Assembly (NCBI GenBank): GCA_017409905.1 | Contig: JAFQRV010000034.1 | Location: 1 to 64,000, forward strand | Direction: 5' to 3' | DNA length: 64,000 nt | Source of the DNA: Bacilli bacterium | GTDB lineage: Bacteria > Bacillota_I > Bacilli_A > ML615J-28 > CAG-313 | Shown: positions 10,701 through 28,529 of the stretch, in pieces | Layout of the letters: the number at the start of each line of letters is the position of its first letter | Position numbering within the stretch: position 1 is the stretch's first letter | Made by a program: the position numbers and the translations under genes | The notes under the pieces: model-generated | Databases searched by the model: none | What the model was told of the DNA's origin: nothing | Seen by the model: the letters and a program-made list of their open reading frames with translations, nothing else

Positions 10701-11224
10701 ACATTAACAGTTACAGAAGCTTTCACACCTTGATATGTACAATAAATTTTATACGTTCCTTCACTAGCTCTAAGATTAGATAAATCTAAGTATTCATCTA
10801 ATACTTCGATATCTTTTCCTTCACTAGTTATAGTAAATAATTCTTTATAATTATAAGAGTTCACATAAACATTTTGTACATCAATTGATTCAACGTTTGA
10901 TGATACAGTTGAACCTGTATTAACCTCAACAATGATAGAAGCAAACTTACTTTCAAATGTGCAAGTAACTATATAAGAACCTACGTTTGTAGATATAGCT
11001 GATGTATCTAAATATTTATCTAGAACAGCTACGTTTTTACCATCTTTTGTTATTGTGAATAAGCTCTTAAAATCATAATTCAATACTTCAGTATCACTTA
11101 TACTTACTTTATCTTGTTTAGCTGTTACCTCAATTACTGTCTGAGTAGTACCACCCATTTCACAGCCAACTAGGAAAACAAATGCTATAAGAATAACAAC
11201 AAAGAACTTAAATAATTTCTTCAT
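7799..11224 (-). CDS. large surface lipoprotein with tandem Ig-like domains
   Basis: A 1141-residue lipoprotein: signal peptide MKKLFKFFVVILIAFV and lipobox FLVGC (Cys ~21). Residues ~30-680 are a string of about eight Ig-like repeats. Each has the pattern of a short hydrophobic strand, then F(D/T)(Y/F)xSLFTI, then a GxYxxxVxY strand, for example NFDFTSLFTIYSDG and DGIYTIKVNY. The C-terminal ~460 residues form separate beta-rich domains without recognised motifs, including VDGYGKGIINFNKAQYKVYQ. It lies 19 nt after the 957-residue lipoprotein and 29 nt before the giant one. It is probably a rod-like binding protein on the cell surface; no enzymatic signature was found. Confidence 0.8.
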   Translation of the reverse strand: MKKLFKFFVVILIAFVFLVGCEMGGTTQTVIEVTAKQDKVSISDTEVLNYDFKSLFTITKDGKNVAVLDKYLDTSAISTNVGSYIVTCTFESKFASIIVEVNTGSTVSSNVESIDVQNVYVNSYNYKELFTITSEGKDIEVLDEYLDLSNLRASEGTYKIYCTYQGVKASVTVNVTEVTYQLKLSEKEITVKQSDAENFDYKSLFTAVVGGKIQTITDDMIKSNVQSEVGIYQYTVTLGESTMTLIVNVITDSNIEIINSYKLFEIEEKELQNFDFTSLFTIYSDGVSQKVTKDMIDKSSLENSSQDGIYTIKVNYTEGKTKVVGTCSIKVIPTSAIVITPKNIVTYPNGEHIDLTTLFEITQGDKKIPVTIDMITGTIDYSTVGLNEIVINYAGITKTAIVEVKQGVIINYTKGEIIEIGKGTSKVSYAFEKDFTVLINGIKFTNIGSYINTEKVDFNTVGEYKATIEIPYTDTSLGYTKDTVFSKTITYKVVDVVYKIKVANTLITLPSNTTSFNAFSNLSVEINGVNQKLTNIPTQVSVIATYANVVSDEIDYDYVGVQNVKVAVYVYGVDKAPVYVEYKVIMESEIVIETKDVFIFEGKTLYTKDLFKIKVGEEEIEVTQDMIEGKVDTHKHGVYQVKINYEGIEKVANVIVLNPDMVGTYKTLLTTIPEGDSTDEEGYETSGSSARPIGNLYITDEGVISVDGKLATILYGIDDNAMYIKVGAYEFELYYDNGVVVIIPENEIKLSYINDKRPLIYFNEAKWELKDHVTINSLSAHILEQVSIGYTFDIFNVIDKEDNSSKWYALEIDLFEKVSSDTIYEVTHGFVEFDEDFQMETGISSSMTYCGVEYQFTMSSNKVGKILTEDELTKYKYSNMSFTGTFNGQNAALTFSAYENITFQIGTTLVFSITGMEARSLLNGGIDYENNSLYLYNEGKNGNQPFAYQFDLDLETNTFTYIEKDIYYGRYESDTMFIFVDGYGKGIINFNKAQYKVYQFEYKVKDNQIEITYLNTKSTFKYGQSSTLYVDALFNTLTAKEFNDESINGMVLENTHIIDGAVIHIKGYTLSTYSNAVLGKKALFELIEIITKDGVITDNNIKTNMINISDVSFAVKGFYHFSVTVNINGNDVVMHYALQIN

Positions 11225-11243: not shown

Positions 11244-14117
11244 TTATTTATTTAAAATCCAATCACCTAAGTGATAGAAGTAAATAGATAAATGCTTAGT
11301 TTGATTGTTAGTAATAACAATTTCAATTTGACCTTTTGTTAATACAACATATCTATCGCCATAACCACTTTGACCACCACTAGTATCAGTATTACTTTGA
11401 TCTAATACATAGCCTTCTTCTTGTAATGCAGTAATTAATTCATTCATTAATTCTTCATAATTAGTAATTCTAGAATTTTCATCAAATTCACTACTTTCAA
11501 CATTAATACTTACATATTCTTTATAAATAGTTTCGCCATTTGCATCTGTACCATTTTCACGATAATCGAAGAAAGGACCAAATACCATATCATCAAATAC
11601 TTCTACAAAAATTTGTGGAGATGGTAAATCAACAGCGTGTTCTTTGAAGACATAATTTAAAACAACAGCTGCATTTTCTTCACGTGAAGTTGCTGAAGTA
11701 TGTTCTGGTGAATAATATTTACATGTATATTCTTCCCATGTTGTTCTCCAAACACGTGGAACATAATCATCAAATGTATCTTCAGCTATTTCAGTAGTTC
11801 CAACTTCAGAATATTTTGTTTCAATTACACCATAATATACACCAGTTAGGTTATATGGATATTTAGTAGAAACTAAGTTACCATTTGCATCAACAACAAT
11901 TGTTAATAATGAATCAGTTGAACTTTCAGCATCTTCTGCGTATGAATGCATTGATACTTCCATTGCGATATCTCTTGTAATTGCACCTTCTCTTAATACA
12001 AAGATATAAGTAGTATTGCTTCCTGTACCTTTAGTTCCAGCAAATTCAAATATATTTGCAGAGAATTCAAATTTAGGAAGTAATTCACTAATTGTTCCTT
12101 TAATTTTTCTAGTACCAGTTAATGAACCAGAAGTTTCACCACTTACAGGATCTTTTCTTGTTTGATATTCAAATTCATCATAAGTATTATCATCATTTTG
12201 TTTATATCCATAATATTCAGTATGATATAGTTTATCATCCATTCCGTATGAATATTTGCCTGTATTTGCGATCAATATCGCATTTTCTGTCACTTGACCG
12301 AATTCTCCTACTGTACCTGTTGCAGATTGGTTATTTGCCACTTTATTAGATGAAACAGAACCAATTAAAGTAGTTCTAGGAGCAAACTTAATAGTTGCAC
12401 CTTCTGTAGCACTAGCAGAAATTTCATACTCACCAGAATCACCAGATGGAGCATAAGTAGTAGTATCTACAGCTCTGTAAGTATAGTTAGTTGCATTATG
12501 CATTTTTTGTATTGCTTGTTCTAATAATTCTACATATTCTGGAGCTTCAAATGTTTGAGGATTAGGAACAACAGTATTACCGACATTATGAATAGATAAT
12601 TCTAATTCAGTAACACTCATTGCACTAGCTTCTTCAGCAGTTTCTGAACCATAATATAAAATTTCAGTTCTTGCAATAATCTTTGAAATCTTGCCTTCTT
12701 CAATTACGAATGCAAAATAATGTAAAGTATCTTCTAACATTGGTGTTAAACAATATGATAAATAAGTCATTAAGTATAAATCTTCAATGTTCTTTAAATC
12801 AATGTTATATTCATATCTTAATAATTCAGAATTATAAGTAAACTTCTCAATTGATAAATTACCTAAATGATTCCATAAATGTTGAGCTTCCCAAACAGCT
12901 GGAATACTCATATAGTCTTTAATCATTTTTGAGGCAACTTCATTATTTTTATTAATATATAATTCTTCTAATGCATGACCCGCAACACCAGCAGAATTCT
13001 TTATACCATCTTGTTCACCTTTACGATAATTATTAGCAATAATATTTTCAGTATCATTTTGGTAATTCCATTGACCAAACCATCTACCTGTACTCATCAT
13101 TACTAATGAATCCATTCTAGTAGTTTTACTATTAAATGTATTATTAAAATCTGTATATTTATTAGTAACAACACCACTTATTGTAATATTACTATTAGCT
13201 ACTTCAGCAATTAAATCTGAAGTTAATTCACCAACTTGTCCTGGGATAATAGGAGCTTTAATTATTATTGTCTTTGATTTAAATAAACTTTCATCACCAT
13301 TTGCTGTACAAGTAACAGTAATGTTTGTATCTACCTTAACAGTACCGATTAATTTCAAAACATTATTTTCAATCTTAACTAAGTTTTCGTGAGAAACAGA
13401 CCAAGTATAAGTAGTATCTTCAACACCTGTAACTATAGCACTTAGTAATACTTCTTCTCCTTCTGCAATAGTATCACTTGCTGCACTAATTGTAATACTT
13501 CCTAATGAAGTAGGTGCTTTTACAGTAATTTGTTTTTCATCAAATACAGAATTATCTTCAACTGAGAATGCTTTAATAGTTACTACAGTATCTACTGTAA
13601 CATCTTTTAATACTGATAATACATTGTTATCGATTTTTAAAATAGATGTATCAGAAATATACCATCCATATGCACTATTAGAAAAACCTTTAACTGCTAC
13701 ATTTAATGCAATTGTTTCACCAAATGTAATAGTATTTCTTTGAGTAGTAATTTCTACTGATTTTTCTTCAGCAAATTTAACTGTAAATACTTTTGTTTCT
13801 TTTTTGCTAGCATCAGCATTAGCGAATACAATAACTGTAACTGTACGATCTGCAGTAACATCATCAATTACAGATAATGTGTCATTTTCAATTTTAACTA
13901 AACTTGGATCAGAAATTACATATTGATAAGTTGTATCATCTGAACCAGTTACTTTAACATCTAATTTTATTGTTTCTCCTTTTGTAATGGTTGTGGTTGG
14001 AGCATTAAAAGTGATAGATACTTCTTGAGGATCTTTATCATCACCGCATCCAACAACAGCAAATACAGAGAAAACAAGTAATAATAAATAGAATATTTTA
14101 AATATTGATTTTTTCAT
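11244..14117 (-). CDS. surface lipoprotein with three BIG2 Ig-like domains (paralogue of the next upstream gene)
   Basis: A 957-residue lipoprotein: signal peptide MKKSIFKIFYLLLLVF, lipobox AVVGC (Cys ~24). Residues ~30-285 are three Ig-like group 2 domains (ITKGETIKLDVKVTG, TFGETIALNVAVKG, IAEGEEVLLSAIVTG, each followed by a TYxWxxS strand). The remaining ~650 residues align by eye with the C-terminal part of the 781-residue lipoprotein upstream: LLEQAIQKMHNATNYTY here versus LLKEAIENMQNLESYSM there, and similar final YFYHLGDWIL / FIYVWKI strands. The pair therefore arose by duplication. The function is unknown. Co-transcription with the transporter and protease suggests a role in substrate capture. 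Confidence 0.8.
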   Translation of the reverse strand: MKKSIFKIFYLLLLVFSVFAVVGCGDDKDPQEVSITFNAPTTTITKGETIKLDVKVTGSDDTTYQYVISDPSLVKIENDTLSVIDDVTADRTVTVIVFANADASKKETKVFTVKFAEEKSVEITTQRNTITFGETIALNVAVKGFSNSAYGWYISDTSILKIDNNVLSVLKDVTVDTVVTIKAFSVEDNSVFDEKQITVKAPTSLGSITISAASDTIAEGEEVLLSAIVTGVEDTTYTWSVSHENLVKIENNVLKLIGTVKVDTNITVTCTANGDESLFKSKTIIIKAPIIPGQVGELTSDLIAEVANSNITISGVVTNKYTDFNNTFNSKTTRMDSLVMMSTGRWFGQWNYQNDTENIIANNYRKGEQDGIKNSAGVAGHALEELYINKNNEVASKMIKDYMSIPAVWEAQHLWNHLGNLSIEKFTYNSELLRYEYNIDLKNIEDLYLMTYLSYCLTPMLEDTLHYFAFVIEEGKISKIIARTEILYYGSETAEEASAMSVTELELSIHNVGNTVVPNPQTFEAPEYVELLEQAIQKMHNATNYTYRAVDTTTYAPSGDSGEYEISASATEGATIKFAPRTTLIGSVSSNKVANNQSATGTVGEFGQVTENAILIANTGKYSYGMDDKLYHTEYYGYKQNDDNTYDEFEYQTRKDPVSGETSGSLTGTRKIKGTISELLPKFEFSANIFEFAGTKGTGSNTTYIFVLREGAITRDIAMEVSMHSYAEDAESSTDSLLTIVVDANGNLVSTKYPYNLTGVYYGVIETKYSEVGTTEIAEDTFDDYVPRVWRTTWEEYTCKYYSPEHTSATSREENAAVVLNYVFKEHAVDLPSPQIFVEVFDDMVFGPFFDYRENGTDANGETIYKEYVSINVESSEFDENSRITNYEELMNELITALQEEGYVLDQSNTDTSGGQSGYGDRYVVLTKGQIEIVITNNQTKHLSIYFYHLGDWILNK

Positions 14118-14142: not shown

Positions 14143-16488
14143 TTATATTTTCCAAACATAAATGAATAAATCCAAACTTGAATCAACTGGAGCAACACAT
14201 ATATTTCCCTTACTAAATTCATTAGCATCATTTTTTACAAAGCCCAAAGATATTAAATAATCTTCGACAGCTTTAAGTGAAGAATCAATCGAATAATCGA
14301 CATCTAAAGGAACATCGTAATATAAAGAAATACATTCATGATTTACCTTATTACTATCTCTGTGATAAGAAGTTAATCCAAATCCAAAAGTATCACCAAG
14401 TGGTATACCAAAGAATGGTAATTCACTTAAGAATGTATCTTCTGCTTCTTGTCCTTCTTCAATCTTAAATACTTCTTTAAACATATCGACTGCATTGAAT
14501 GCTTCATCATCTTCTGTATTGCCAGATACACTTGATTTATAAATTTCAAGTTGACTCCATGATGTTGGAACTTCTCTTTTTTCAAAAGATATTGAAACAT
14601 CTTCTGGAATAAATGATTCATTGAACCCATAATATTCAATTTCAATTATGCCATATAAATAACCTAAATAGAAATAGAAACCAGATTCGACAATCATTTT
14701 AGTTTCATTATCTACTACTACATATGGAGTAAAATCTTCAGTTGCAGATATATATCCAACTGTTGCGAATAAACCATATAATTGAATATCATTACCAACA
14801 CCATAATAATATGTTGATGCAACAGCAGACATAATATCATTTACATAATAAGTAGTAGTTCCCTCTTTGTCATCTACATAACGTTCAGTATATATTTCAG
14901 GAGCAAATGCAAATGTAGGCTTTGCTTTACTGAAATCGTCATTATAAGCACGTGATGCCTTAAATCCTAAACTATTCTTGTCTTTATCTTCTTCTTCAAA
15001 ATATGCATTGTATAAATTTTCACTAAACTTATGATATCCATAGGCAGAATTTTTTATTGGTGTATATACTTCTTTTCCATATTTATCATAAGAAATAGTG
15101 TGTGGAACAAAATAACAATCATCACTAGTAATTATTTCGGTGAATCCTTCTTGTGTATAACCACTAGAAATACTAGAACCTGTTACTTGATTGAAAGTCA
15201 TTGAATAACTTTCTAAATTTTGCATATTTTCAATAGCTTCTTTTAATAAAGTATGTTTTTCTTGATCAAAAACAAACTTTGGAATTTTTGTTACTTTTAC
15301 ATTTTCTTCGCCATAATTAATAGCTACTATTAATTCTTGAACAGCTCTATATTGTTCAACAATTGTATAGTCATCTTTACTTATTGCATAAATACCCATG
15401 ATTTCTCCTTCTTCAATAATTAAAGAGAAACCATTAGTTTTAAATTCATAAGGATTAGCAGAAGCAATTAATCTATCATCTAATGATTCGTCACTACCAA
15501 CGTATTTCCAACGCCATATTTCAGTGTCAAATTCAAAATCACTTACCTTTAATCCTTTAAAGTTATTATATAAACCATATTCTTCCCAACTAATTGGATC
15601 ACCTTTATTATCTAATGCAGGTTCATATTCTTCAACATTCATAAAGTTAACACCAACTTGACAAGCAATGTTATTATGATTTTTAAAATATAATCCCATC
15701 TTTGTTAAAGTATCACCGTTTTCATATTCAGCATACCAGTATTCACCATCTAATGCAGTTCTTACAGATGTTGATGTAGTTGAATATAATTTGTTAGATT
15801 CATATGGATATAAATTAACATTAATATATCCTTCAAATGATAAATAATCTTCATTAGCAATTACATCTAACATTTCTTGAGTAAGTTCTGGTTTAGTAAC
15901 TATTGTAATAATTTTACTACCATAATAGTTATTATCTTCATTACTAGCAGCAATTACTTCGATGACTTTATTACCTTCTTCATTTGAAACTTTAGTAGCA
16001 GTTAATATACCTTCTTGATCTATTGTCGCATATTCACTACCACTTTTAATAGACCATGTAACAGTAGTATCTTCAGCTCCTGTTACAGTTGCTTTTAAAG
16101 TGATTGATTTACCACTTCTTATTTCTGAAGAACCACTAATAGCGACCACGATATCCTTATTAGTAGGATCTGGAACAACTATACTTGGTGCAGTATAGAT
16201 TTGTGGAGCACTAGTAGGAGATTTTTCATAACCTTCAGCATAAGCTGTTATGCTATATACCATATCTATTTTCATATTAGGTACAACATAAAATGGAGTA
16301 GTTACTTCAATCTCTTCATCATTTATTAAAACTTTATATGATGTTGCATTAGGAACTGCATCCCAAGTCAATACACCATTTTTGTCTAATACAATATTTG
16401 TAGGAGTAGTAAGAACTTTTTCTTCGCCACAAGCAATTGTGAAAAACAACACGAAGATTAGTAGAAATACTTTAATTAATTTCTTCAT
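14143..16488 (-). CDS. surface lipoprotein with FN3-like and BIG2 domains, paralogue of the downstream gene
   Basis: A 781-residue lipoprotein: signal peptide MKKLIKVFLLIFVLF, lipobox FTIAC (Cys ~20). Residues ~27-95 form an FN3-like domain (LTWDAVPNATSYKVLINDEE) and residues ~108-200 a BIG2-type domain (SGKSITLKATVTGAEDTTVT). The rest matches the family shared with the 957-residue lipoprotein. Its start overlaps the end of the protease gene by 17 nt, so translation is probably coupled. No catalytic residues were recognised. Confidence 0.8.
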   Translation of the reverse strand: MKKLIKVFLLIFVLFFTIACGEEKVLTTPTNIVLDKNGVLTWDAVPNATSYKVLINDEEIEVTTPFYVVPNMKIDMVYSITAYAEGYEKSPTSAPQIYTAPSIVVPDPTNKDIVVAISGSSEIRSGKSITLKATVTGAEDTTVTWSIKSGSEYATIDQEGILTATKVSNEEGNKVIEVIAASNEDNNYYGSKIITIVTKPELTQEMLDVIANEDYLSFEGYINVNLYPYESNKLYSTTSTSVRTALDGEYWYAEYENGDTLTKMGLYFKNHNNIACQVGVNFMNVEEYEPALDNKGDPISWEEYGLYNNFKGLKVSDFEFDTEIWRWKYVGSDESLDDRLIASANPYEFKTNGFSLIIEEGEIMGIYAISKDDYTIVEQYRAVQELIVAINYGEENVKVTKIPKFVFDQEKHTLLKEAIENMQNLESYSMTFNQVTGSSISSGYTQEGFTEIITSDDCYFVPHTISYDKYGKEVYTPIKNSAYGYHKFSENLYNAYFEEEDKDKNSLGFKASRAYNDDFSKAKPTFAFAPEIYTERYVDDKEGTTTYYVNDIMSAVASTYYYGVGNDIQLYGLFATVGYISATEDFTPYVVVDNETKMIVESGFYFYLGYLYGIIEIEYYGFNESFIPEDVSISFEKREVPTSWSQLEIYKSSVSGNTEDDEAFNAVDMFKEVFKIEEGQEAEDTFLSELPFFGIPLGDTFGFGLTSYHRDSNKVNHECISLYYDVPLDVDYSIDSSLKAVEDYLISLGFVKNDANEFSKGNICVAPVDSSLDLFIYVWKI

Positions 16489-19400
16489 CTTTCTTACCTC
16501 CTTTTTTCTTTAATAATATAACTACAAGAACACTTGCACCTGCAGCAACTAACACACCAGCAGATATAGATATTATTAATATCCAAGGAATCTTCTTAGG
16601 TTCAGTTGTATCATCACCTGTATTAGGAATTTCCTCTTCTACTTTATGTGCTTTTTCATAAGCTTTATATAAATCTTCATAGTTATTTAAATCTAATAAT
16701 GCTTTTTCATCTAGAGTTAAATTACTTAATTTTTTATTTATATTTAATAATTCATCTATAATTTCATCACTATATTCACTAGGTAAAGCATTTAATAATT
16801 CATTAACTTCACGTACTGCTTTCTTAGCATTACGTATTTTTATTTCTCTAATTTCATGTTTTGCAGATTCTACTGTTTCTATTAATTGATAATATTCATT
16901 TATATCATATCCAAATAGTGTAGGATCTTGTTTAATAGCTTTATAACATTTTATTGCATTATCTACTAATTCTTCATTAGCAATAACAATGTTTTCTAAA
17001 CCTGCAATCTCTCTTGCATATTCATAGAATTTAATTAAATTTTCTTCTTTAGCAAGATAATTATTATGGCCAGCATCTTCTACACTACCAAAATATATAT
17101 AATATACTAATGAATCATATCCGACTAAATTAGTATTAATTGGTAATACCATTTCAATAGATTCTTTTTTACCAACTAAATCAATAAAGTTAAAATAGCA
17201 TAATTCTAATCCAAATAATTCATATTGATTATGAATAATATCATATCCAGGATCTCCTTCTTCTAGAATGGCTTTATCATTATATGAGTCTTCTAATTTA
17301 GGAGCTGTAAATGATTTAAATTCAACAGTCTTTAATGAGTCATATCCATAGAATGCATAATTACCGATTATTTCTAGTGAATCTGGTAATACAATTTTTG
17401 TAACATTTTTATTTTCATTACCTGCATAGAAATCAATTCTCGCAGTACCTTCTAATACTTCTAATGTAGTAACATTACTTGCTTGTGGAACTGCAGTTAA
17501 TTGTAATTTGCCATTTTCCATATATGTATATAGATTACCTTTTTCAATTAAAGCATAATCATTTATAGAACCATTACTTTGTGTTCCTTCATTTGTAAAA
17601 TAAGCAAAACTTTCTAAGCTTGTACATCCATTGAATGCTGCACTTCCTACTGAACTTAATTTGTTAGAGAAAACAAAATTCACGAGATGTTCATTATATT
17701 GGAAAGCATAATAACCAATCTTTTCAAGATTAGGAGCCTCAATGCTTGATAAAGCAGCACCTTGGAAACCATATTTTTCAACTTCTTTTAAATTAGGAGT
17801 ATTTAAATCTCCTTTAATTTCTGTATCCGCAAATGCACCTTCTTTAACTAATTCAACACTACTTAAATCAACATTTTCCAAAGATGCACAAGAAATAAAT
17901 GAATACATTTCAAATGTTTTAATATTTTCTAAATTAATTTTATTTAGCATTGAACAACCAGCAAATGTATATTCGCCAATTGTATCAATTGTATCTGGTA
18001 ATATAACCTCTTCTAAACTTATACAATATGAGAATACGTAATTACCAATTGATGTTACACTAGATGGAATTTCAATTTCTACAAGTTTTTCACATCCTAA
18101 GAATGCCCCATCACCAATTGTTTTTAGCGTATTTGGCAATAATAACTCTGTGAATATTGCACCACCGCCTGCGTATGTGCTAGTTCTTGAGAACGCCCCT
18201 GCACCAATATTTTCCACAACAGGTACTGTAACATATAATAATTTAACACAATCACTAAAGGCATAATCACCAATATTTTTTACGTTTGTTAAGTGGGCAT
18301 TTAATAATTCTTGACAATTATAAAATGCATATTTTTCAATTGTATCATCTGTTTTAGAAAGGTCAATAGTTTTTAATTGTACACAATTTAAGAAACATTG
18401 TTCACCAATGTGTACTCCACCATTTTCTGGCATATTAACTTTTACAAGACTACGACATTCTTGGAAACAAGCAAAACCAAATTGAGCATTTTCACCAATA
18501 GTTACATTTTCTAAAGCTGCTTGGTAGAATACACCTTCACTATATACTGCGTTATCCGCAATATTAGCTGTTTTAATACCAGATGAAGCGAAAGCATAAC
18601 TGCCAACATTTTTCACAAATTGTAAATTTTCTACTTCTAGTAAATTTTTATCATTGTAAAAACTTCTAGCTTTAATAGTAATATTATTATTAACTGGTAA
18701 TATTACTTTTGTTAATTCTTCACAGTTTGCAAAAGCATAATCCCCAATAACTGTATTTATATTACTAATTGTTACAGTTTTAACATTGCTACCAGCAAAA
18801 GCTGAATTACCAATTTCCGCAATTGTTGAATCAATTACTAGATCGTTATAGTCAATAGCACTGGCTGCTAAAATAATCTTTGTTTGATCTTTATTTAATA
18901 ATAAATTACCTTCACTATTAGTTGAATAGTATGAGTTATTTGTATCAACAACAAACTTTGTTAAATTAGTACCATCAAATAATGTACCAAGTACATCTTC
19001 AAGATAAGTATTTTCTTGGAAATGAACTTCTTCTAATTCACTACATTCGTGGAATGCATAAGCTCCAAGTTTAACTTTAGAATTTGGAAGAGTAATCTTT
19101 TCTAATTTATTAGTTGCATAGAATACTTGTTCACCAATTGTATCTACAGAACCTTTAAATGTAAATTCTGTTAAGCTTGTACATTCACTAAATGCACCAT
19201 TTTTAATTTCAATTAATGAATTATTTAAAACAACTTTTGTTAAACTTGCACATTGTGCAAAACAGAATTCTGGAATTTCAATTGTTTCATATAAATTAGC
19301 TTCTTTAATACCACTATTAACAAACATTGCGTAAGATAGTTTAGTATGTCTACCAAATACAACTGTTTCTAAAGCAGTACAATCTTTAAATACTTCTTTT

Positions 19401-22400
19401 CCAGCATTTCTTAATGCAGTTAAATCAGCATATTCTAAGGAAGTACATCCCGCAAAAGCTCTAGCACCCATTGAATAGATTTTAGTAAATTGATCTTCTT
19501 CAAGTTTTAATTCTACACAATTACCAAATGCTTCTCTACCAATTGCTTGAGTCTTTTTGAAATCAAATGTTTTTAATGATTCATTACCATAGAAAGCAAA
19601 TTCGCGAATAAATTTGATTGATTCGGGAATTGTTACACTTTCTAATGCTTTACAATTATAGAAGGCATATTTTTGAATTTCTTCAACACCATCTGGAATA
19701 ACAACTGAAGTAACAGATGTATTCATTAATGGGATTTTATTAGCATCATAATCTTCTTCAGTAAGAATTACTGAATTATCTGTATCATATAAACAGAAAG
19801 CATAAGCACCAATATATAAAATACCTTCATCATCAGGAATTACAACAGGACCACCTAATCCTTTATATGCAATTAATGTTCTGTTTTCAATAACAAATTC
19901 ACTCTTAATTGTAATATTTAGAGTTGCGATTAAGTTAGAACCTTTAACACGAAGCTCAATAATTGTACTACCTTCTTTAAGGCCTTTAACAATACCATCT
20001 TGATCTACTTCAGCAATACTTGGATTTCTACTTACATATGTTAATTCATAATTATCTGCCGCATACCAAGGATCTAAATCATAACTTAATTGAATACTTT
20101 CACCAGGATACATTGCAACTCCACTAGGTAGGCTTGATAAATATTTTCTATCTCCGGTTGCACCAATTTCACTTGTTTGAGCAGCCCTTGAATAAGCAAA
20201 TAATGTATCAAAATATGAGAATCTTATTTCTTCAATTTTAGTTTTATTAACATCTTCACTAACTGTTTCATCTTTATTAACTCTATTATTTGTAGTTCTT
20301 GATTTAACATTTATAATTACTACTGCTTGTTTGCCATAAAGATTTTCTCTTGCTGTAATTGTTGCTTTACCAGCTTTTATACCTTTCACAATTCCATCTT
20401 TTACTTGAACAACTTCTTCATTTGAAGAAATCCATTCTAAGTATTTTAAGTAATCTTTATCAGCATCAACATTTTCATCTTTTGTTGCTAAATATTTTGT
20501 TAAATCAACTGCTTCATTTTCATACATTGGAAGAATGATTAAATCAGTTCCATCCATTGTACCATCCTTTGTAAATTTAAAATCACCATCAGTACCAGGC
20601 AATTGACAAATATAAATGTCTGAGTTTAAAGCATAGTCATCGATTGCAAAAGCTAATGCATTTGTTACAATTGAATCACTATATATATCTTCTAAATAAT
20701 CAGTTATTTCAAATTTAACTTTTGAAGTTTGTCCTTTTTCACTATAAATAGGAATTGGATTTTTTGTTAAGAAAGTATAACTTGAACTAGATGTAAAAAT
20801 AATTGGTGTAATAGATTGAGCATAATGATTATCATAAATACTTAATGTAATATAATAACGATCTTTCTTTAATGATTTATCATATTCCTTAGAATATTCA
20901 ACTTCATTCAAGATAGGAGCTTCATCATCTAAATAAAAATCAAAACTAAATGTATTTCGAATGTTTGATTTAACACCACCATCTTTATAATCTAATAAAC
21001 CAGTCATCCTAAATTCATATTGTCTATTATTAACAAGTTTTAATTCTGCAGATTTTAAATTTAAGAAATCATAATAAGGTAATGCTTGTCCAGCATAATA
21101 AGATTTTTGTGCATTATAATCTGTATGTTCGTATACTACTTCACCTGTTTGTTTATCAACAATTGTGAATTCCATTGTCTTACAATTTCTTAGTAATCCA
21201 GCATATACTGCTGATAATCCATCAATTGTACCTAAATAATTAGATAATGCAATATGTTCTTTAGAAGCAGGAATTGAATCAAATTTATTAGTGTCAATAT
21301 CATATAGATATGTTCCAAGTGGAATAATATAGTTATAATAATAAGATCCATATGGAGTAGTCGCATAATAATCAGCTTTTAATTTATCTTCTTCATCAAT
21401 CGATAAATCGTGAGCTTCTGATTCTACTTCATAATAAGTTTTATCGAAAATTGGAGCCTGTGTCCAATCACCATAGAAAGCTAAGAATGGGATATTTAAA
21501 TCAATTGCTTTTTCATTTTCAGCTAATGTATTAATATCTTTTAATTCAACAAAACCTTCTACATACATTCCATAAGGGAATGAGTTTTCAATATATTCTT
21601 TATTTTCTTTTGTTAAAGTATAAACTACTTTAATCTTACAAGTTTCATTTGCATTAACAGTTACAACTTTACCATTTAATGTTCCACCACTTATTACTTC
21701 TGCTGTGAAAGCATCTGTTAATAATAGTGATTTTTCCGCAACGTGTTCTTCATCAGATGTAGAAACACTTTCAGTCATACCAATAACACCTAAGTTATAT
21801 TTTAATGCTGTATTAGTTAAGTTAACAACATTAAATTCCATTGTGTAAACACCAGTTTTTTCTGGATCATCTAATAATTCTAATTTAGGTCTATCAATAC
21901 CATCTACTGTTAAATAAGCTTTAGTATTTACCGCATTATATAAACTTGCAAGTCCAGCACCTTGTTTTCTAACAGCATATGGATTACCTTGTTCATTTAA
22001 GATAATTTCTGATGTAGACATTAGTAATTGATTTGCAAGATTAGATATTTCTTTATCTTTTAAATTTTGATCTTTAAATTGTTCTTTTAAATATTGTCTT
22101 ATTAAAACAACAATACCACATAAGTTTGGTGTAGCCATTGATGTACCACTAAGTTCATCATAACCTCCACCAGGGACTGATGATTTAATATTTCCACCAT
22201 GTGCTGTGATTTCTGGTTTAATTCCAAGGGATGGAGTTGGACCCCAACTTGAGAAATCTGACATAAATGGACCAGCTTGATTTTGGTAACTTAATGTAAG
22301 AGTACCACTTTTCTTTTTAGCAAGTTCAGTACCTAATTCTTTTGAAATAGATATTGTTGGGATATGATCACTCTTACCCATTGACATTAAGATATTACCT

Positions 22401-23989
22401 TCAATATTATTGTAAATAATACATGCTACAGCACCAGCTGCTTTAGCATTTTTTGCTTTTTCTTCAAATGTATTATCACCACGTCTAATTAATGCAACTT
22501 TACCAGTTAAGTCTCCTAAAGCTGTAAAGTTAACACCTAAACCAACACCAGGTACTGTTACATATTCTAGTGTTAGTGTTTCACTTTTATCTTTTCCAAG
22601 TGATTTATATAGTTCTTCATAGAAATCATTTGGAAGACCATTCATTGCATTTGATTCTGTAAAGAATACAACTCTTTCATTGCTAGCAATCAAATATTTA
22701 CTCTTTGTTCCACTAATAGATGCAACAGATAAAGCCGCATCATAAGTTGATGGTGAACCAACAGTTCCAGAATCTGGATTTGTTACAAAGTTTGTATCAC
22801 CTTGTGCTCCACCAAATGATGAGCTATAACTATTACTTGCAGCACATAGTAAACTAATACCTGCATTACCAATTGCATCATATACAGCATTTAATTGATC
22901 ATTGTCTTCTTCTCTTGCGAAACCACAAGAAGAACCAAGTGACATATTAATTGCATCAACACCAATTTTAACAGAATCTTCTAATGCTGCTAATATATCT
23001 TCAGTTTTTCCACCTTCATCTAAATCAGGAAAAACTTTCATTAATACTAATTGTGTATCAACCGCAATACCTGTAATTGTATCATCTTTACCACCAATGA
23101 TACCCGCAACGTGTGTTCCGTGTTCAGAATCATATGGGAATACATCATAGTCTTTATCTGCATAGTCATATACAAAAGGAATTTTTTTACTGTAATAAAC
23201 ATCTGTAACTTTTAAAGGTTGACTACCTTTATAAAAGTCTTCAGATGCCGCATTAGTGCTTCCTAATATACTTTCAATGTATTCAAATGTTAACATTTCA
23301 GTATCTATTTCTCTTTGGAATACAGAATGACTACAATCAAATCCAGAGTCAAGGATTGCGACTGCAGTACCTTTTCCAGTAAAATTAACACTATCAGATT
23401 TATATATACCAGTTTCATAAACATCTACTGGATTTTCAATAGCTGAAGCATCAGTTGAAGCTTTTGGAAGATTAAATGTATCAGACAACATTGTTGATTT
23501 AACATTTGTTAATTCACTAATCTTTTTAAAGTTTCCATAAGTTGTACTAACTGCTACAGCATTAATAATTGTATTATATCGATATTTAACTGAATCGATT
23601 AATTTATTTTCTAATAAATTAATAATTAATTTATCTTGTTCATTTTTTATTATTGATGCTTGAACTAATCCATCTTTACTCTTAGCATATTCTGCAACAT
23701 TCTTTACAGAGCTTAAATATTGTTCATTATATATCTCAATTAAAGGCTTTGCATTAAGAGTAACCATTATGACTAATTCATCATCATCTTTGTACCCATT
23801 ATTTTCTAGTAAGTATTCAGCTTTAATTTTAGATAATGTTTGTTCTTGGGTAAGTTTAAAATCGGTTTTCAATATTTGTAAATTTTGTTTATTATCCGTA
23901 TTTTCTATAACTTCTTTTTCACTAGAACAAGCAAAACATGTAACCAAGGCGACTAGAAAAACAATTAAGGTTATTAATTTATTTTTCAT
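16472..23989 (-). CDS. giant cell-surface subtilisin-like protease with PA, Ig-like and BspA leucine-rich repeat domains
   Basis: A 2505-residue exported serine protease. The signal peptide ends in a lipobox (CFAC, Cys21). Residues ~65-170 look like an inhibitor I9-type propeptide. The S8 triad is complete: Asp214 in VAILDSGFD, His290 in HGTHVAGIIGG, Ser617 in LSGTSMATPN, with the oxyanion Asn386. A PA domain is inserted at ~470-570 (GKVALIRRGDNTFEEKA), as in C5a-peptidase-like enzymes, followed by Ig-like regions, BIG2 domains and about 900 residues of BspA/LRR_5 repeats (SIGNYVFSYCISLEEVILP). The C-terminus has a transmembrane helix (~2468-2492) and a Lys-rich tail, so it could be anchored at both ends. 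It lies between the peptide importer and the lipoproteins and is the obvious supplier of peptides to the importer. The RBS is AAGGAG. Confidence 0.93.
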   Translation of the reverse strand: MKNKLITLIVFLVALVTCFACSSEKEVIENTDNKQNLQILKTDFKLTQEQTLSKIKAEYLLENNGYKDDDELVIMVTLNAKPLIEIYNEQYLSSVKNVAEYAKSKDGLVQASIIKNEQDKLIINLLENKLIDSVKYRYNTIINAVAVSTTYGNFKKISELTNVKSTMLSDTFNLPKASTDASAIENPVDVYETGIYKSDSVNFTGKGTAVAILDSGFDCSHSVFQREIDTEMLTFEYIESILGSTNAASEDFYKGSQPLKVTDVYYSKKIPFVYDYADKDYDVFPYDSEHGTHVAGIIGGKDDTITGIAVDTQLVLMKVFPDLDEGGKTEDILAALEDSVKIGVDAINMSLGSSCGFAREEDNDQLNAVYDAIGNAGISLLCAASNSYSSSFGGAQGDTNFVTNPDSGTVGSPSTYDAALSVASISGTKSKYLIASNERVVFFTESNAMNGLPNDFYEELYKSLGKDKSETLTLEYVTVPGVGLGVNFTALGDLTGKVALIRRGDNTFEEKAKNAKAAGAVACIIYNNIEGNILMSMGKSDHIPTISISKELGTELAKKKSGTLTLSYQNQAGPFMSDFSSWGPTPSLGIKPEITAHGGNIKSSVPGGGYDELSGTSMATPNLCGIVVLIRQYLKEQFKDQNLKDKEISNLANQLLMSTSEIILNEQGNPYAVRKQGAGLASLYNAVNTKAYLTVDGIDRPKLELLDDPEKTGVYTMEFNVVNLTNTALKYNLGVIGMTESVSTSDEEHVAEKSLLLTDAFTAEVISGGTLNGKVVTVNANETCKIKVVYTLTKENKEYIENSFPYGMYVEGFVELKDINTLAENEKAIDLNIPFLAFYGDWTQAPIFDKTYYEVESEAHDLSIDEEDKLKADYYATTPYGSYYYNYIIPLGTYLYDIDTNKFDSIPASKEHIALSNYLGTIDGLSAVYAGLLRNCKTMEFTIVDKQTGEVVYEHTDYNAQKSYYAGQALPYYDFLNLKSAELKLVNNRQYEFRMTGLLDYKDGGVKSNIRNTFSFDFYLDDEAPILNEVEYSKEYDKSLKKDRYYITLSIYDNHYAQSITPIIFTSSSSYTFLTKNPIPIYSEKGQTSKVKFEITDYLEDIYSDSIVTNALAFAIDDYALNSDIYICQLPGTDGDFKFTKDGTMDGTDLIILPMYENEAVDLTKYLATKDENVDADKDYLKYLEWISSNEEVVQVKDGIVKGIKAGKATITARENLYGKQAVVIINVKSRTTNNRVNKDETVSEDVNKTKIEEIRFSYFDTLFAYSRAAQTSEIGATGDRKYLSSLPSGVAMYPGESIQLSYDLDPWYAADNYELTYVSRNPSIAEVDQDGIVKGLKEGSTIIELRVKGSNLIATLNITIKSEFVIENRTLIAYKGLGGPVVIPDDEGILYIGAYAFCLYDTDNSVILTEEDYDANKIPLMNTSVTSVVIPDGVEEIQKYAFYNCKALESVTIPESIKFIREFAFYGNESLKTFDFKKTQAIGREAFGNCVELKLEEDQFTKIYSMGARAFAGCTSLEYADLTALRNAGKEVFKDCTALETVVFGRHTKLSYAMFVNSGIKEANLYETIEIPEFCFAQCASLTKVVLNNSLIEIKNGAFSECTSLTEFTFKGSVDTIGEQVFYATNKLEKITLPNSKVKLGAYAFHECSELEEVHFQENTYLEDVLGTLFDGTNLTKFVVDTNNSYYSTNSEGNLLLNKDQTKIILAASAIDYNDLVIDSTIAEIGNSAFAGSNVKTVTISNINTVIGDYAFANCEELTKVILPVNNNITIKARSFYNDKNLLEVENLQFVKNVGSYAFASSGIKTANIADNAVYSEGVFYQAALENVTIGENAQFGFACFQECRSLVKVNMPENGGVHIGEQCFLNCVQLKTIDLSKTDDTIEKYAFYNCQELLNAHLTNVKNIGDYAFSDCVKLLYVTVPVVENIGAGAFSRTSTYAGGGAIFTELLLPNTLKTIGDGAFLGCEKLVEIEIPSSVTSIGNYVFSYCISLEEVILPDTIDTIGEYTFAGCSMLNKINLENIKTFEMYSFISCASLENVDLSSVELVKEGAFADTEIKGDLNTPNLKEVEKYGFQGAALSSIEAPNLEKIGYYAFQYNEHLVNFVFSNKLSSVGSAAFNGCTSLESFAYFTNEGTQSNGSINDYALIEKGNLYTYMENGKLQLTAVPQASNVTTLEVLEGTARIDFYAGNENKNVTKIVLPDSLEIIGNYAFYGYDSLKTVEFKSFTAPKLEDSYNDKAILEEGDPGYDIIHNQYELFGLELCYFNFIDLVGKKESIEMVLPINTNLVGYDSLVYYIYFGSVEDAGHNNYLAKEENLIKFYEYAREIAGLENIVIANEELVDNAIKCYKAIKQDPTLFGYDINEYYQLIETVESAKHEIREIKIRNAKKAVREVNELLNALPSEYSDEIIDELLNINKKLSNLTLDEKALLDLNNYEDLYKAYEKAHKVEEEIPNTGDDTTEPKKIPWILIISISAGVLVAAGASVLVVILLKKKGGKKDEEIN
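18011..18144 (-). repeat. LRR segment shared at DNA level with the second BspA-like gene
   Basis: This stretch aligns without gaps to 45206-45339 in the other BspA-like gene, with long identical runs such as aatacgtaattaccaattga (20 bases). It encodes two LRR_5 repeats around PSSVTSIGNYVFSYC. Confidence 0.8.
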
Positions 23990-24004: not shown

Positions 24005-24226
24005 TTAGCTGAGCCATATATATATTAATATCATTGCTAGACCAAAACAAAGTATTACTCCAAAAACAATTGGAAGAAATCTTTGAAAGGCTGCTATTAT
24101 CATTGCTCTTCTTTCTTTTCTTGTAAGACCAACTGATGGTCTTTTTTCTCTTCTGTTTGGAAGACCCTCTACGTCCATATTGAAGATAGTATGACCATCA
24201 TCAATATATTTTTCTTTTTTACTCAT
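24005..24226 (-). CDS. small single-pass membrane protein between OppF and the protease, function unknown
   Basis: A 73-residue protein with a hydrophilic, charged N-terminal half (RREKRPSVGLTRKERRAM) and one transmembrane helix at ~50-71 (PIVFGVILCFGLAMILIYIW). The start overlaps the oppF stop by 8 nt and the protease gene begins 15 nt later, so it belongs to the operon. By the positive-inside rule the N-terminus should be cytoplasmic. It could be an accessory subunit of the transporter or of protease assembly. No family was recognised. Confidence 0.7.
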   Translation of the reverse strand: MSKKEKYIDDGHTIFNMDVEGLPNRREKRPSVGLTRKERRAMIIAAFQRFLPIVFGVILCFGLAMILIYIWLS

Positions 24227-25292
24227 TATTTTCTTCTTCTTTTTCTTGTGCTAACATTTCTTCATATTGTCGATCATATTCTTCTAAGTTATTCATAACT
24301 TCTTCATTGAATAAGTGACAATTAACAAAATGATTAGGTTTAACTTCTAAATACTCTGGTTCTTTAAATTTACATACATTCATGCATTCTTTGCATCTTG
24401 TATGGAATTTACAACCAAGTGGAGGATTCGCAGGTGAAGGGATATCTCCACTAAGTATTATTCTATTCATTTTAAAATCAGGATCAGGCACAGGAACAGC
24501 AGAGAAAAGTGCCTTAGTATATGGATGTAATGGATTGTCAAATATTTCATCTGTATCTCCATACTCCATGACATTTCCTAAATACATAACCATAATTTGA
24601 TCTGTAATATATTTAACTACTGATAAATCATGTGAAATAAACATATATGTTAGGTTATTTTTAATTTGTAATTCTTTTAATAAGTTAATAATTTGTGCTT
24701 GTATCGATACGTCTAGTGCAGAAACAGGTTCATCACAAATAACAAGTTCTGGTTTTACCGCAAGTGCTCTTGCGATACAAATTCTTTGTCTTTGTCCACC
24801 ACTAAATTCATGTGGATAACGATCAAAATAAGATTGTTGTAAACCACATTTATCCATTATATCTAATACATATTCTAATACTTCTTCTTTAGGAACAATA
24901 TTATGTACTTTAACTGCTTCAGATATAATATTACCAATAGTCATTCTAGGTGGTAAACTAGAATATGGATCTTGGAATATTAATTGCATCTGTGTACGAT
25001 ATTTTCTCATTTGACTACTAGAGATGTTTGTTATATCGTTACCTTTAAATAATATTTGTCCACCATCATTGTCATAAAGCTTTAAAATAGTTCTACCAAG
25101 TGTAGTTTTACCACAACCAGATTCACCAACAATTCCAATTGTTTTTCCTCTTTCTAAAGTAAAACTAACATTATCTACAGCTCTTAAAAATTTAATTGGT
25201 TTCCCAAAGAATGATCTTTCAATTGGAAAATATTTTTTTAAATTCTTAACTTCTAAAATAATATCTTTTTCGAAAGTAGTTTCATTTGCCAT
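24219..25292 (-). CDS. oppF: oligopeptide ABC transporter ATP-binding protein OppF
   Basis: A 357-residue cytoplasmic ATPase that powers peptide import together with OppD. Walker A is GIVGESGCGKTTLGR, the Q-loop LIFQDPYSSL, the signature EFSGGQRQR, Walker B LVICDEPVSALD and the switch His ISHDLSVV. The C-terminal oligopeptide-transporter extension carries the four-Cys motif seen in OppD/DppD (CKFHTRCKECMNVCKFKEP, then CHLF), typical of a [4Fe-4S]-binding loop. It is preceded by oppD with a 3-nt gap and followed by an overlapping small membrane-protein gene. Confidence 0.93.
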   Translation of the reverse strand: MANETTFEKDIILEVKNLKKYFPIERSFFGKPIKFLRAVDNVSFTLERGKTIGIVGESGCGKTTLGRTILKLYDNDGGQILFKGNDITNISSSQMRKYRTQMQLIFQDPYSSLPPRMTIGNIISEAVKVHNIVPKEEVLEYVLDIMDKCGLQQSYFDRYPHEFSGGQRQRICIARALAVKPELVICDEPVSALDVSIQAQIINLLKELQIKNNLTYMFISHDLSVVKYITDQIMVMYLGNVMEYGDTDEIFDNPLHPYTKALFSAVPVPDPDFKMNRIILSGDIPSPANPPLGCKFHTRCKECMNVCKFKEPEYLEVKPNHFVNCHLFNEEVMNNLEEYDRQYEEMLAQEKEEENNE

Positions 25293-25295
25293 AAA

Positions 25296-26459
25296 CTATT
25301 CCTCACTTTCTTCATATAAGTAACAAGATACATAGTGTGTATCACTTACTTTAATTTCTTTTGGATATTCTCCATTACATTTATTAATACATTTAGTACA
25401 ACGACCTTTGAAATAACAATTATTAGGTAAGTTAATAGGACTTGGAACTTGACCTGGAATTGAATATAAAGGTTCGTTAGAATTAGATGTGATTAATGGT
25501 TTACTCTTTTGTAAGCCAATTGTATATGGATGCATTGGATTATGGAAGATTTCTTTTGCTGTACCTTTTTCAATTACTTTACCAGCATACATTACTACTA
25601 CATAATCAGCCATTTCTGCAATAACTCCTAAATCATGAGTTATTAACATAATTGAGCATCCTTCTTTCTTTTGTAAATCTTTAAGTAATTCTAAGATTTG
25701 AGCTTGAATTGTAACGTCTAAAGCAGTTGTTGGTTCATCCGCAATAATTAATTTTGGATTACCTGCAAGTGCCATCGCAATCATAACTCTTTGTCTCATA
25801 CCACCAGATAATTCATGAGGATAAGAACTATATACTCTTTCAGGCATTGAAATACCAACTTTATTTAACATTTCAATACTGTGTTTCTTAGCTTCTTCTT
25901 TTTGAATTTCGGGATTATGAATAAATGATACTTCATCTAATTGATATCCAATTGTGAAAACTGGATTTAAGCTAGTCATTGGTTCTTGGAAAATCATAGT
26001 AATATCTTTTCCACGAATATTATACATATGTTGAGTAGGCATTTTAGTTATATCATAAGCTAATTTATTGCCTTTTTCATCAAGACTAACCTCATCTGTA
26101 TTAAAACGAATTTGACCATCAATAATTTGTCCTTGAGGAGATTGTACTAATTGCATAATTGATAACGATGTAACTGATTTACCACAACCTGATTCACCAA
26201 CAACACCTACAATACTATTTTTTGGAATATCGAATGATACACCATTTACAGACATAACTGTTCCATTATCAGTAAAGAAACAAGTTTTTAAGTTATCAAT
26301 TTCAATAATGTTATTAGGATTTTTCATTTTTACTGTATATTCAATTGGTTCAACATTTCTTCTTTTTAATGCCTCATAATGTTTCATTTGTTGAATATTG
26401 TATTTAATTATTTGTCTGCTTTCTTTTAAAGAAATATAATTTGTCTTTTTAACTTTCAT
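25296..26459 (-). CDS. oppD: oligopeptide ABC transporter ATP-binding protein OppD
   Basis: About 387 residues. Walker A is VGVVGESGCGKSVTSL, the signature ELSGGMRQR, Walker B LIIADEPTTALD and the switch His ITHDLGVI. The C-terminal Cys cluster CYFKGRCTKCINKC is present. Compared with typical OppD there is an N-terminal extension of about 45 residues rich in Lys and Tyr. I choose the ATG at 26459, which has an AGGTG ribosome site, over the in-frame GTG at 26468. It forms the nucleotide-binding heterodimer with OppF; the gene starts 9 nt after oppC. Confidence 0.93.
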   Translation of the reverse strand: MKVKKTNYISLKESRQIIKYNIQQMKHYEALKRRNVEPIEYTVKMKNPNNIIEIDNLKTCFFTDNGTVMSVNGVSFDIPKNSIVGVVGESGCGKSVTSLSIMQLVQSPQGQIIDGQIRFNTDEVSLDEKGNKLAYDITKMPTQHMYNIRGKDITMIFQEPMTSLNPVFTIGYQLDEVSFIHNPEIQKEEAKKHSIEMLNKVGISMPERVYSSYPHELSGGMRQRVMIAMALAGNPKLIIADEPTTALDVTIQAQILELLKDLQKKEGCSIMLITHDLGVIAEMADYVVVMYAGKVIEKGTAKEIFHNPMHPYTIGLQKSKPLITSNSNEPLYSIPGQVPSPINLPNNCYFKGRCTKCINKCNGEYPKEIKVSDTHYVSCYLYEESEE

Positions 26460-26468
26460 ACTCTTCAC

Positions 26469-27512
26469 CTACTTCTTAGCCTTTGGATCCATGGCATCAC
26501 GTAATCCATCACCAACAAAGTTAAATCCAAGTACAGCAATAACAATCATAAAGCCGGCTGGTAACCACATATTAGCATGATAATTTAGTACTTGTGGATC
26601 ATTCGCTGTAGCTATCATTGTTCCCCATGCAGCTTTAGGTAATTGAACACCTAAACCTAAGTAACTTAATGTAGATTCGTATAAAATAACACTACCTAAA
26701 CCAAGTGTCATTGATACAATTAATTGAGGCATAACATTTGGAATTAAATGTTTAAAGATTTTACGCCAAACTGGAAGTCCCATTACTTCGGTTGCGATAA
26801 TAAATTCTTGTTCTCTTAAAGAAAGAATTTGACCACGAACCATTCTAGCAACTCCACTCCAGCTAAATATTGTAATAATAACCATTAAAATATATATACG
26901 TTGGTCTGCATCAAGATTCCATGAATCAATTAATGCGGAAGCTATTAATAAGATTGGAAGTGTTGGAATACAGTTAAAAATATCAACTATACGCATAATT
27001 AATTGGTCTACCCAACCACCAAAGTAACCAGATATTCCACCTAATGCTACACCAATTAATGTTTCTAAAATGACAACAATAAAACCAATAAGTAATGATA
27101 TTCTTCCACCATACATTAATCTTACAAATACGTCCATACCATTATCATCAGTTCCAAGTAAGTGTTCACTACTAGGATTAGCATATGAATTAATAGTAGC
27201 TGTATGTTCTAAGATTTGTGTAACTTTAACTTCTTTTCCATTTTCATCAATATAAGTATAAGTCGATGTAATTTGTTGAATTACTTCTCTTCTATCAACT
27301 GTTTCTTCTCCCCATTTTTGATAAATCACAGGACCTAAAAATGAGAATAAGAATAATAATACTAACATAATTAAGCCAACTAAAGATAATTTAGATCTAA
27401 AGAATCTTCTTAAAATTAATCTAATTGGACTCATTTCTTTAAATGTTTCTTTTGTTTCAATTGTTGTTTCTTCTACTTCAACAACTTCAGTAGGTATTTT
27501 ATTTTCACTCAT
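26469..27512 (-). CDS. oppC: oligopeptide ABC transporter permease OppC
   Basis: A 347-residue membrane subunit with the N-terminal OppC domain (LILRRFFRSKLSLVGLIML) and the binding-protein-dependent permease core. The cytoplasmic coupling (EAA) loop is ATEVMGLPVWRKIFKHLIPN. The first extracytoplasmic loop is longer than usual, about 40 extra residues around TYTYIDENGKEVKV, placed where the binding protein docks. It is preceded by oppB (9-nt gap) and pairs with OppB to form the channel. Confidence 0.93.
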   Translation of the reverse strand: MSENKIPTEVVEVEETTIETKETFKEMSPIRLILRRFFRSKLSLVGLIMLVLLFLFSFLGPVIYQKWGEETVDRREVIQQITSTYTYIDENGKEVKVTQILEHTATINSYANPSSEHLLGTDDNGMDVFVRLMYGGRISLLIGFIVVILETLIGVALGGISGYFGGWVDQLIMRIVDIFNCIPTLPILLIASALIDSWNLDADQRIYILMVIITIFSWSGVARMVRGQILSLREQEFIIATEVMGLPVWRKIFKHLIPNVMPQLIVSMTLGLGSVILYESTLSYLGLGVQLPKAAWGTMIATANDPQVLNYHANMWLPAGFMIVIAVLGFNFVGDGLRDAMDPKAKK

Positions 27513-27521
27513 CTAAATCAC

Positions 27522-28529
27522 CTACTTTCCAAGTTTGACTCTAGGGTCAACAACTGAATACATAATATCGGAGAATAATGTTCCAATAATTGTTAGGATT
27601 GCTAAGAACATATTATATCCCATTACAAATGGAATATCTCCTTCTCTTAATGCTTGATAAGCTAAACGACCAATACCATCAATACCAAATACTTGTTCAG
27701 TAATCATCATACCACCAAATAATGATGGTAAAATACCTGCAAGTAAAGTAACTAATGGAATCATAGTATTTCTAAAAGCATGTTTATAAATAACTGTTTT
27801 TTCAGATAAGCCTTTAGCTCTAGCTGTTCTAATATAATCAGCATTTAATACTTCTAATGTATTTGTTCTTGTATATCTCATTAATCCACCAATTGATAAG
27901 ATTACTGTTACTAATATAGGTAATATTAAGTGGTGAGCAATATCACCTAATCTTTGCATACTCCCCATAAATGTATCCGGATAATTGGCGGTTGCGGATA
28001 GAAGACCATTAGATGGGAACCATCCTAAATTAACAGAGAATAATTTAATAACGATTGCGGCAAAGAAATATGTAGGAAGTGATATACCAATCATTGTAAA
28101 TACTGTTACCGCATAGTCTCTAACTGAATATTGGTGAGTTGCACTACTAATACCAAGAGGTATTGCGATTAAGAATTGGAGAATAGTTGCAATAACAGCT
28201 ATCGCAAACGATATCCACATATTCTCACCTATTACTTGTGCAACTGGTTTTTCATACTTAAATGATAACCCTAAGTCACCTTTACAAAGGTTACCAATCC
28301 ATTTTAAGTAACCTCCAACAATCCCCTTAAAACTTGTATCCCCTATTCCGTATAATTCTTTGAAATGGTCTATATCTTCTTGATTAATAGTACCACTTTG
28401 TAATTGACTGGCATATTTGTTATCGACGTAATCGGTGGGCATCATTCTAACCATAGTATAAATAATTATTGATACACCTAGCAAGATTACTACAGAAATA
28501 GCCAATCGTTTAACAATATATTTAAACAT
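27522..28529 (-). CDS. oppB: oligopeptide ABC transporter permease OppB
   Basis: A 335-residue permease with the typical OppB N-terminus (MFKYIVKRLAISVVILLG), six predicted membrane segments and the EAA loop RTARAKGLSEKTVIYKHAF followed by RNTMIPLVT. Its ribosome site AAGGAG lies inside an inverted repeat in the oppA-oppB gap, so its translation may be tuned separately from oppA. Confidence 0.94.
   Translation of the reverse strand: MFKYIVKRLAISVVILLGVSIIIYTMVRMMPTDYVDNKYASQLQSGTINQEDIDHFKELYGIGDTSFKGIVGGYLKWIGNLCKGDLGLSFKYEKPVAQVIGENMWISFAIAVIATILQFLIAIPLGISSATHQYSVRDYAVTVFTMIGISLPTYFFAAIVIKLFSVNLGWFPSNGLLSATANYPDTFMGSMQRLGDIAHHLILPILVTVILSIGGLMRYTRTNTLEVLNADYIRTARAKGLSEKTVIYKHAFRNTMIPLVTLLAGILPSLFGGMMITEQVFGIDGIGRLAYQALREGDIPFVMGYNMFLAILTIIGTLFSDIMYSVVDPRVKLGK

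Follow-up and report, generated by a model that had tools for sequence, protein, structure and literature searches.

The analysed window, a stretch of DNA 64,000 nucleotides long, encodes a protease that, judged by its sequence, is a cell-envelope proteinase of the C5a-peptidase/lactocepin type. The whole picture, in which this surface endoprotease is anchored sequentially and feeds an oligopeptide importer, appears fairly probable. Its catalytic chemistry is known. What looks new is the anchoring, an architecture shared by Bacilli/Mollicutes and Clostridia, and the link to an importer. No description of an S8/BspA protease family was found in literature searches of open-access papers.

The gene is a single uninterrupted frame on the minus strand, with an ATG start (Table 1). 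The encoded chain comprises a pro-domain, an S8 domain with a PA insert, Fn3 and Ig-like domains, a BspA solenoid, a helical bundle and a C-terminal transmembrane helix. The initial annotation had placed an S8 protease near the N-terminus and about 900 residues of BspA repeats behind it, and both are borne out. The S8 domain scores 139.4 bits against PF00082 (cut-off 21.8), and its residues Asp214, His290, Asn386 and Ser617 are invariant in every one of 94 aligned rows that has letters there. The repeat block measures 875 residues, with eight LRR_5 stretches (448.9 bits, Pfam cut-off 27.7; E 1.3e-136), and forms a continuous solenoid in the model. The PA insert, the fn3_5 and two Big_2 domains, the pro-domain fold, the helical bundle, the IPNTG motif and the adjacent Opp operon were absent from that annotation. 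In the model of residues 45–1160 (mean pLDDT 81, pTM 0.72), a separate pro-domain fold is followed by a loose linker and then by the catalytic domain. The model of residues 1356–2505 (mean pLDDT 90, pTM 0.68) consists of the long solenoid, the helical bundle and a loose tail that crosses the membrane segment; the prediction of that segment is poor as well.

Table 1. Features of the protease and of the neighbouring genes (residues refer to the protease; "best 80 of 478" denotes the wider relatives examined).
Feature	Residues	Position in window	Strand	Basis
Whole gene, 2505-aa membrane-anchored S8/BspA cell-envelope proteinase		16472..23989	-	ORF; host-family full-length relatives 2474–2502 aa
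Signal peptide, lipobox-like LVTC-18 / CFAC-21	1–21	23927..23989	-	loose lipobox pattern only; Cys conserved 14/14
Pro-domain, I9-like strand/helix order	about 70–168	23486..23782	-	AlphaFold2 model, pLDDT mostly 80–88
Linker pro-domain/catalytic domain, likely place of autocleavage (inferred)	171–183	23441..23479	-	pLDDT <50; variable among relatives
S8 catalytic domain; D214, H290, N386, S617	205–678	21956..23377	-	Pfam PF00082
PA insert	488–556	22322..22528	-	Pfam PF02225
fn3_5 domain (712–835) and further beta domains	712–1160	20510..21856	-	Pfam PF06280; model; Foldseek alignment along C5a peptidase/SpyCEP
Region of two Big_2 Ig-like domains	1161–1355	19925..20509	-	Pfam PF02368, 2 stretches
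BspA/LRR_5 solenoid	1356–2230	17300..19924	-	Pfam PF13306; model pLDDT about 95; 829–907 aa in 42 relatives
Helical bundle	2316–2448	16646..17044	-	model
IPNTG, sortase-like, not conserved	2454–2458	16616..16630	-	window copy only, 1/14 host-family copies
C-terminal transmembrane helix	2467–2493	16511..16591	-	hydropathy; kept in 74/75 wider relatives (best 80 of 478)
OppF, ATPase of adjacent oligopeptide importer		24219..25292	-	Pfam ABC_tran + oligo_HPY
OppD		25296..26468	-	Pfam ABC_tran + oligo_HPY
OppC		26469..27512	-	Pfam BPD_transp_1 + OppC_N
OppB		27522..28529	-	Pfam BPD_transp_1; copy number equals that of the protease in the host family
OppA, substrate-binding protein, N-terminal helix without Cys		28588..31233	-	Pfam SBP_bac_5
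Small lipoprotein accompanying the operon		31226..32359	-	relative in 65/80 wider loci (best 80 of 478)
Lipoprotein gene, downstream, 17-base overlap with the protease gene		14143..16488	-	ORFs; relative in 34/80 wider loci (best 80 of 478)
Companion lipoprotein		11244..14117	-	ORF; relative in 32/80 wider loci (best 80 of 478)
Companion lipoprotein		7799..11224	-	ORF; relative in 28/80 wider loci (best 80 of 478)

The order of an S8 domain with a PA insert followed by fn3_5, which characterizes the C5a-peptidase/lactocepin class, was found by Pfam, profile search and Foldseek. Among PDB structures, the profile search comes nearest to streptococcal envelope proteinases, including C5a peptidase and SpyCEP (E to 3.8e-106), which are also the best fold matches in Foldseek (E to 1.1e-55). 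These two enzymes and lactocepin (PrtP) have in common with the window protease the S8 domain with its PA insert and Fn3-type domains, a pro-domain and a C-terminal surface anchor. In contrast, the LPXTG and sortase wall anchoring typical of the class is replaced in the window protease by a membrane helix, and a lipobox-like N-terminus, Ig domains, the 875-residue solenoid, the helical bundle and the adjacent Opp operon come in addition. The best NCBIfam match, the LPXTG-anchored serine peptidase SGO_0316/SGO_0317 (NF040553), covers residues 109–858 with 232.8 bits for a cut-off of 1400 bits; unlike it, the window protease has no conserved LPXTG, and no sortase was found in its host family.

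The 15 host-family genomes searched contain 14 full-length copies (window, L002–L010, L016–L019), distributed over 10 genomes, four of which have two. These copies form two groups, with 57–65% and 41–42% identity to the window. A scan of species genomes with the single protein as query found no relative, whereas the host-family alignment as query retrieved 478, of which the best 80 were examined; 11 of these 80 loci repeat host-family copies. The best 80 of 478 come mostly from Clostridia and Anaeroplasma/Acholeplasmatales MAGs of the animal gut, and one (L103) belongs to Pumilibacter intestinalis CLA-AA-M10, a named and apparently cultured strain. With few exceptions, the full-length ones among them measure about 2400–2700 aa.

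Two strong hydrophobic segments are present in the protease, one N-terminal and one near the C-end, and no other 19-residue segment reaches a mean hydropathy of 1.5. The transmembrane helix announced for the C-end is indeed there: the protein finishes with a helix at about 2467–2493 and KKKGGKKDEEIN, KKKGGKK coming directly after the helix and IPNTG before it. All 14 host-family copies keep a C-terminal hydrophobic helix, and in each of them the signal peptide ends with a Cys. The helix is found in 74 of the 75 loci with a readable C-end among the best 80 of 478 relatives, L065 having none. The lipobox claimed for the start stands only in part. The loose pattern is passed and the Cys is kept in 14/14, but the window sequence fails both strict lipoprotein patterns used for scoring N-termini, G+LPP and PS00013. 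It is indeed non-canonical, Cys18 having Thr at −1 and Cys21 having Cys at −3. Cys18 corresponds in the alignment to the lone Cys of the second host-family group, and several relatives (e.g., L107, L123) share the C-x-[AS]-C form, which makes Cys21 possible as a lipidation site; the protein is probably lipidated at one of the two. LspA was detected in 12 of the 15 host-family genomes, and was not found in the window's own genome, which is 70.7% complete.

Scoring of 80 non-duplicate N-termini gave 22 that pass G+LPP, 25 more that pass PS00013, 15 (window included) that pass the loose pattern only and 18 that pass none; most of the family (47/80) thus has a strict lipobox. The catalytic-domain tree comprises 81 rows, 13 of 94 having been dropped (11 repeats of host-family loci and 2 truncated). 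The lipobox state changes on it at least five times when ambiguous rows are left out, both with labels assigned by eye and with labels by regex alone (10 ambiguous N-termini omitted), and at least nine times when all 80 rows are labelled by regex. With a helix kept in 74/75 and an N-terminal state that changes on the tree, the helix looks like the constant anchor and the lipid like the exchangeable one. The earlier proposal that the C-terminal helix may be the lasting anchor has thus gained comparative support, short of proof, and no other part of the protein is as good a candidate for the role. At the edges of the family the anchors vary, as seen from the loose lipobox of the window, the helix-less L065, the ordinary signal peptide of a relative in G013 and a distant S8/LRR relative of 3159 aa in G009 (L049:1834-11313). 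The last of these combines a lipobox with the lack of a C-terminal helix, and the 20 kb read around it contain no Opp.

In the pro-domain, strands and helices follow one another much as in I9. Its junction with the catalytic domain differs in length and sequence among aligned relatives, and removal of the propeptide, taken as necessary in the initial annotation, is plausible from the model. The mode of action that we infer would start with Sec export, after which the C-terminal helix and the N-terminus (probably lipidated at Cys18 or Cys21) would both fix the pre-pro-protein at the membrane. Folding would be guided by the pro-domain, and the enzyme would then cut the linker around residues 171–183, the pro-domain staying on the lipid and the mature enzyme on the helix. 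Borne outward by the helical bundle, the leucine-rich solenoid and the Ig/Fn3 domains, the catalytic domain would cut outside proteins to peptides, which OppABCDF would take up.

A more specific version is possible, though doubtful: the anchors would act in turn, the lipidated pro-domain serving as a zymogen safety catch until autocleavage frees the catalytic domain on a helix-fixed solenoid stalk beside Opp. If true, this would define a class of cell-envelope proteinases that do without sortase, are coupled to an importer and are spread among gut Bacillota. Lineages with and without the lipid anchor exist side by side, and thus offer a natural test of the purpose of a lipid on a removable pro-domain.

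Alternatively, the pro-domain may never be removed, or may be cut and yet remain bound, giving an arch tethered by the lipid at one end and by the helix at the other. By regex, 62 of 80 relatives have a lipobox-like N-terminus, and the Cys is present in all host-family copies; a feature kept for so long should matter after export. A comparable case is NalP, another kind of subtilisin-like protease, which belongs to the diderm Neisseria and has an outer-membrane barrel; its kinship with the window protease runs through S8 only, and its working mode is alike in part. NalP is reported to combine an S8 domain and an N-terminal lipid anchor with a separate C-terminal membrane part, and to work while held by its lipid (PMC5472700). 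Against such an arch, the linker at the pro-domain junction is variable and predicted with low confidence, and lineages devoid of a lipobox keep everything else. Moreover, the lactococcal relative PrtP is reported to remove its own propeptide autocatalytically, its mature start being Asp188 (PMC7783315). A permanently double-anchored enzyme is thus unlikely.

The constant genetic partner of the protease is an oligopeptide importer. In the window, the genes for OppF, OppD, OppC, OppB, OppA and the small lipoprotein lie upstream of the protease gene, on the same strand. Opp genes flank 14/14 host-family copies on the readable side, upstream in one group (A) and downstream in the other (B), and are found in 72 of the 80 wider loci (best 80 of 478), upstream in 43 and downstream in 29. 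Of the eight Opp-less loci in this set, seven are truncated on one side or both, and L057 alone has both flanks, each of about 10 kb; all eight genomes concerned contain an Opp of the same type somewhere (10 genomes searched). OppB at 71–89% identity to that of the window was found in 14 copies, in the same 10 genomes and with the same per-genome numbers as the 14 proteases, the window's own copy included. It is missing from the five host-family genomes that have no full-length protease, G009 having a 36% one. Chance adjacency within 10 kb would, by our own estimate, amount to a few percent per locus, given one or two copies per 1.3–2.0 Mb. Linkage shows a partnership rather than a supply of the products to Opp. 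Since the gene travels with peptide importer genes in many related gut bacteria, the protease probably breaks down outside proteins to nourish the cell.

Neither IlvD nor histidinol dehydrogenase was found in the 15 host-family genomes, the latter search having also missed B. subtilis among its 14 controls; this suggests auxotrophy. The nitrogen supply of gut bacteria that have no sortase and few amino-acid pathways is poorly known, and the family provides a concrete candidate, with one giant protease per importer.

Some further features of the operon region may be mentioned. The OppA of the window has no N-terminal Cys, while 57 of 68 OppA N-termini from the wider loci (best 80 of 478; some starts uncertain) have one at positions 13–32; judged by this Cys-less N-terminus, an anchor swap may have occurred in the binding protein of the importer too. 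For three group-A copies, just the final part of OppF is present before the contig breaks off. A circular 45-kb element was considered from these contig ends (G010–G012), and dropped because in each genome another contig holds a second lipoprotein-Opp operon, which ends in OppF in two (L150, L152) and in OppD in the third (L151). The region 2961–7769 encodes a lipoprotein of 1602 aa that contains five List_Bact_rpt repeats and is found near the locus in some close relatives and in 0/80 wider loci (best 80 of 478). A promoter scan gave fewer promoter-like sites than shuffled sequences and was uninformative, and Rfam detected no regulatory RNA near the operon, a tRNA at 2347–2419 being the sole match.

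It seems unlikely that the protein is mainly an adhesin or a processing enzyme, with repeats binding mucus, feed particles or bacteria and proteolysis serving attachment, attack or lipoprotein shedding. The LRR_5 repeats are indeed common to the HupY/LrrG and BspA surface proteins, which are not known to be proteases, and three companion lipoproteins have relatives in 34, 32 and 28 of the 80 loci (best 80 of 478). NalP is also reported to shed surface proteins (PMC5472700). However, the constant partner is a peptide importer, in 72/80 loci (best 80 of 478) and with matched copy number, and the HupY/LrrG adhesin model NF047961, the next NCBIfam match, gives 136.3 bits, far under its curated cut-off of 1250. 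The label "adhesin" given to the repeats in the initial annotation is drawn solely from family resemblance. For a nutritional protease, which we favour, the repeats may equally well hold the substrate, as was first suggested, or form a stalk of constant length; the leucine-rich block spans 829–907 aa in 42/42 rows measured. A second BspA lipoprotein is encoded at 44678–46951, with one stretch 70% identical to residues 1949–2016 of the protease, which suggests repeat exchange between both genes.

Lactic acid bacteria and streptococci anchor their enzymes of the C5a-peptidase/lactocepin type to the wall. A PrtP-like sortase anchoring through IPNTG is very improbable here and was rejected. The order of motif, helix and positive tail is right for a sortase substrate, but the motif is found in 1/14 host-family copies and sortase (PF04203) in 0/15 host-family genomes, of which 10 have a completeness of 90% or more. 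The same search was positive in 3 of 14 named control genomes, and in 2 of the 24 genomes that hold the wider relatives (24 from 80 loci; best 80 of 478). With no sortase found in 15/15 and 22/24 genomes, the enzyme thus appears to be a sortase-free version of the wall-anchored type. A wall-less host was also considered as the cause of the membrane anchors, and found no support: PBP transpeptidase genes are present in 13 of the 15 host-family genomes, so that most members of the family appear to make a wall.
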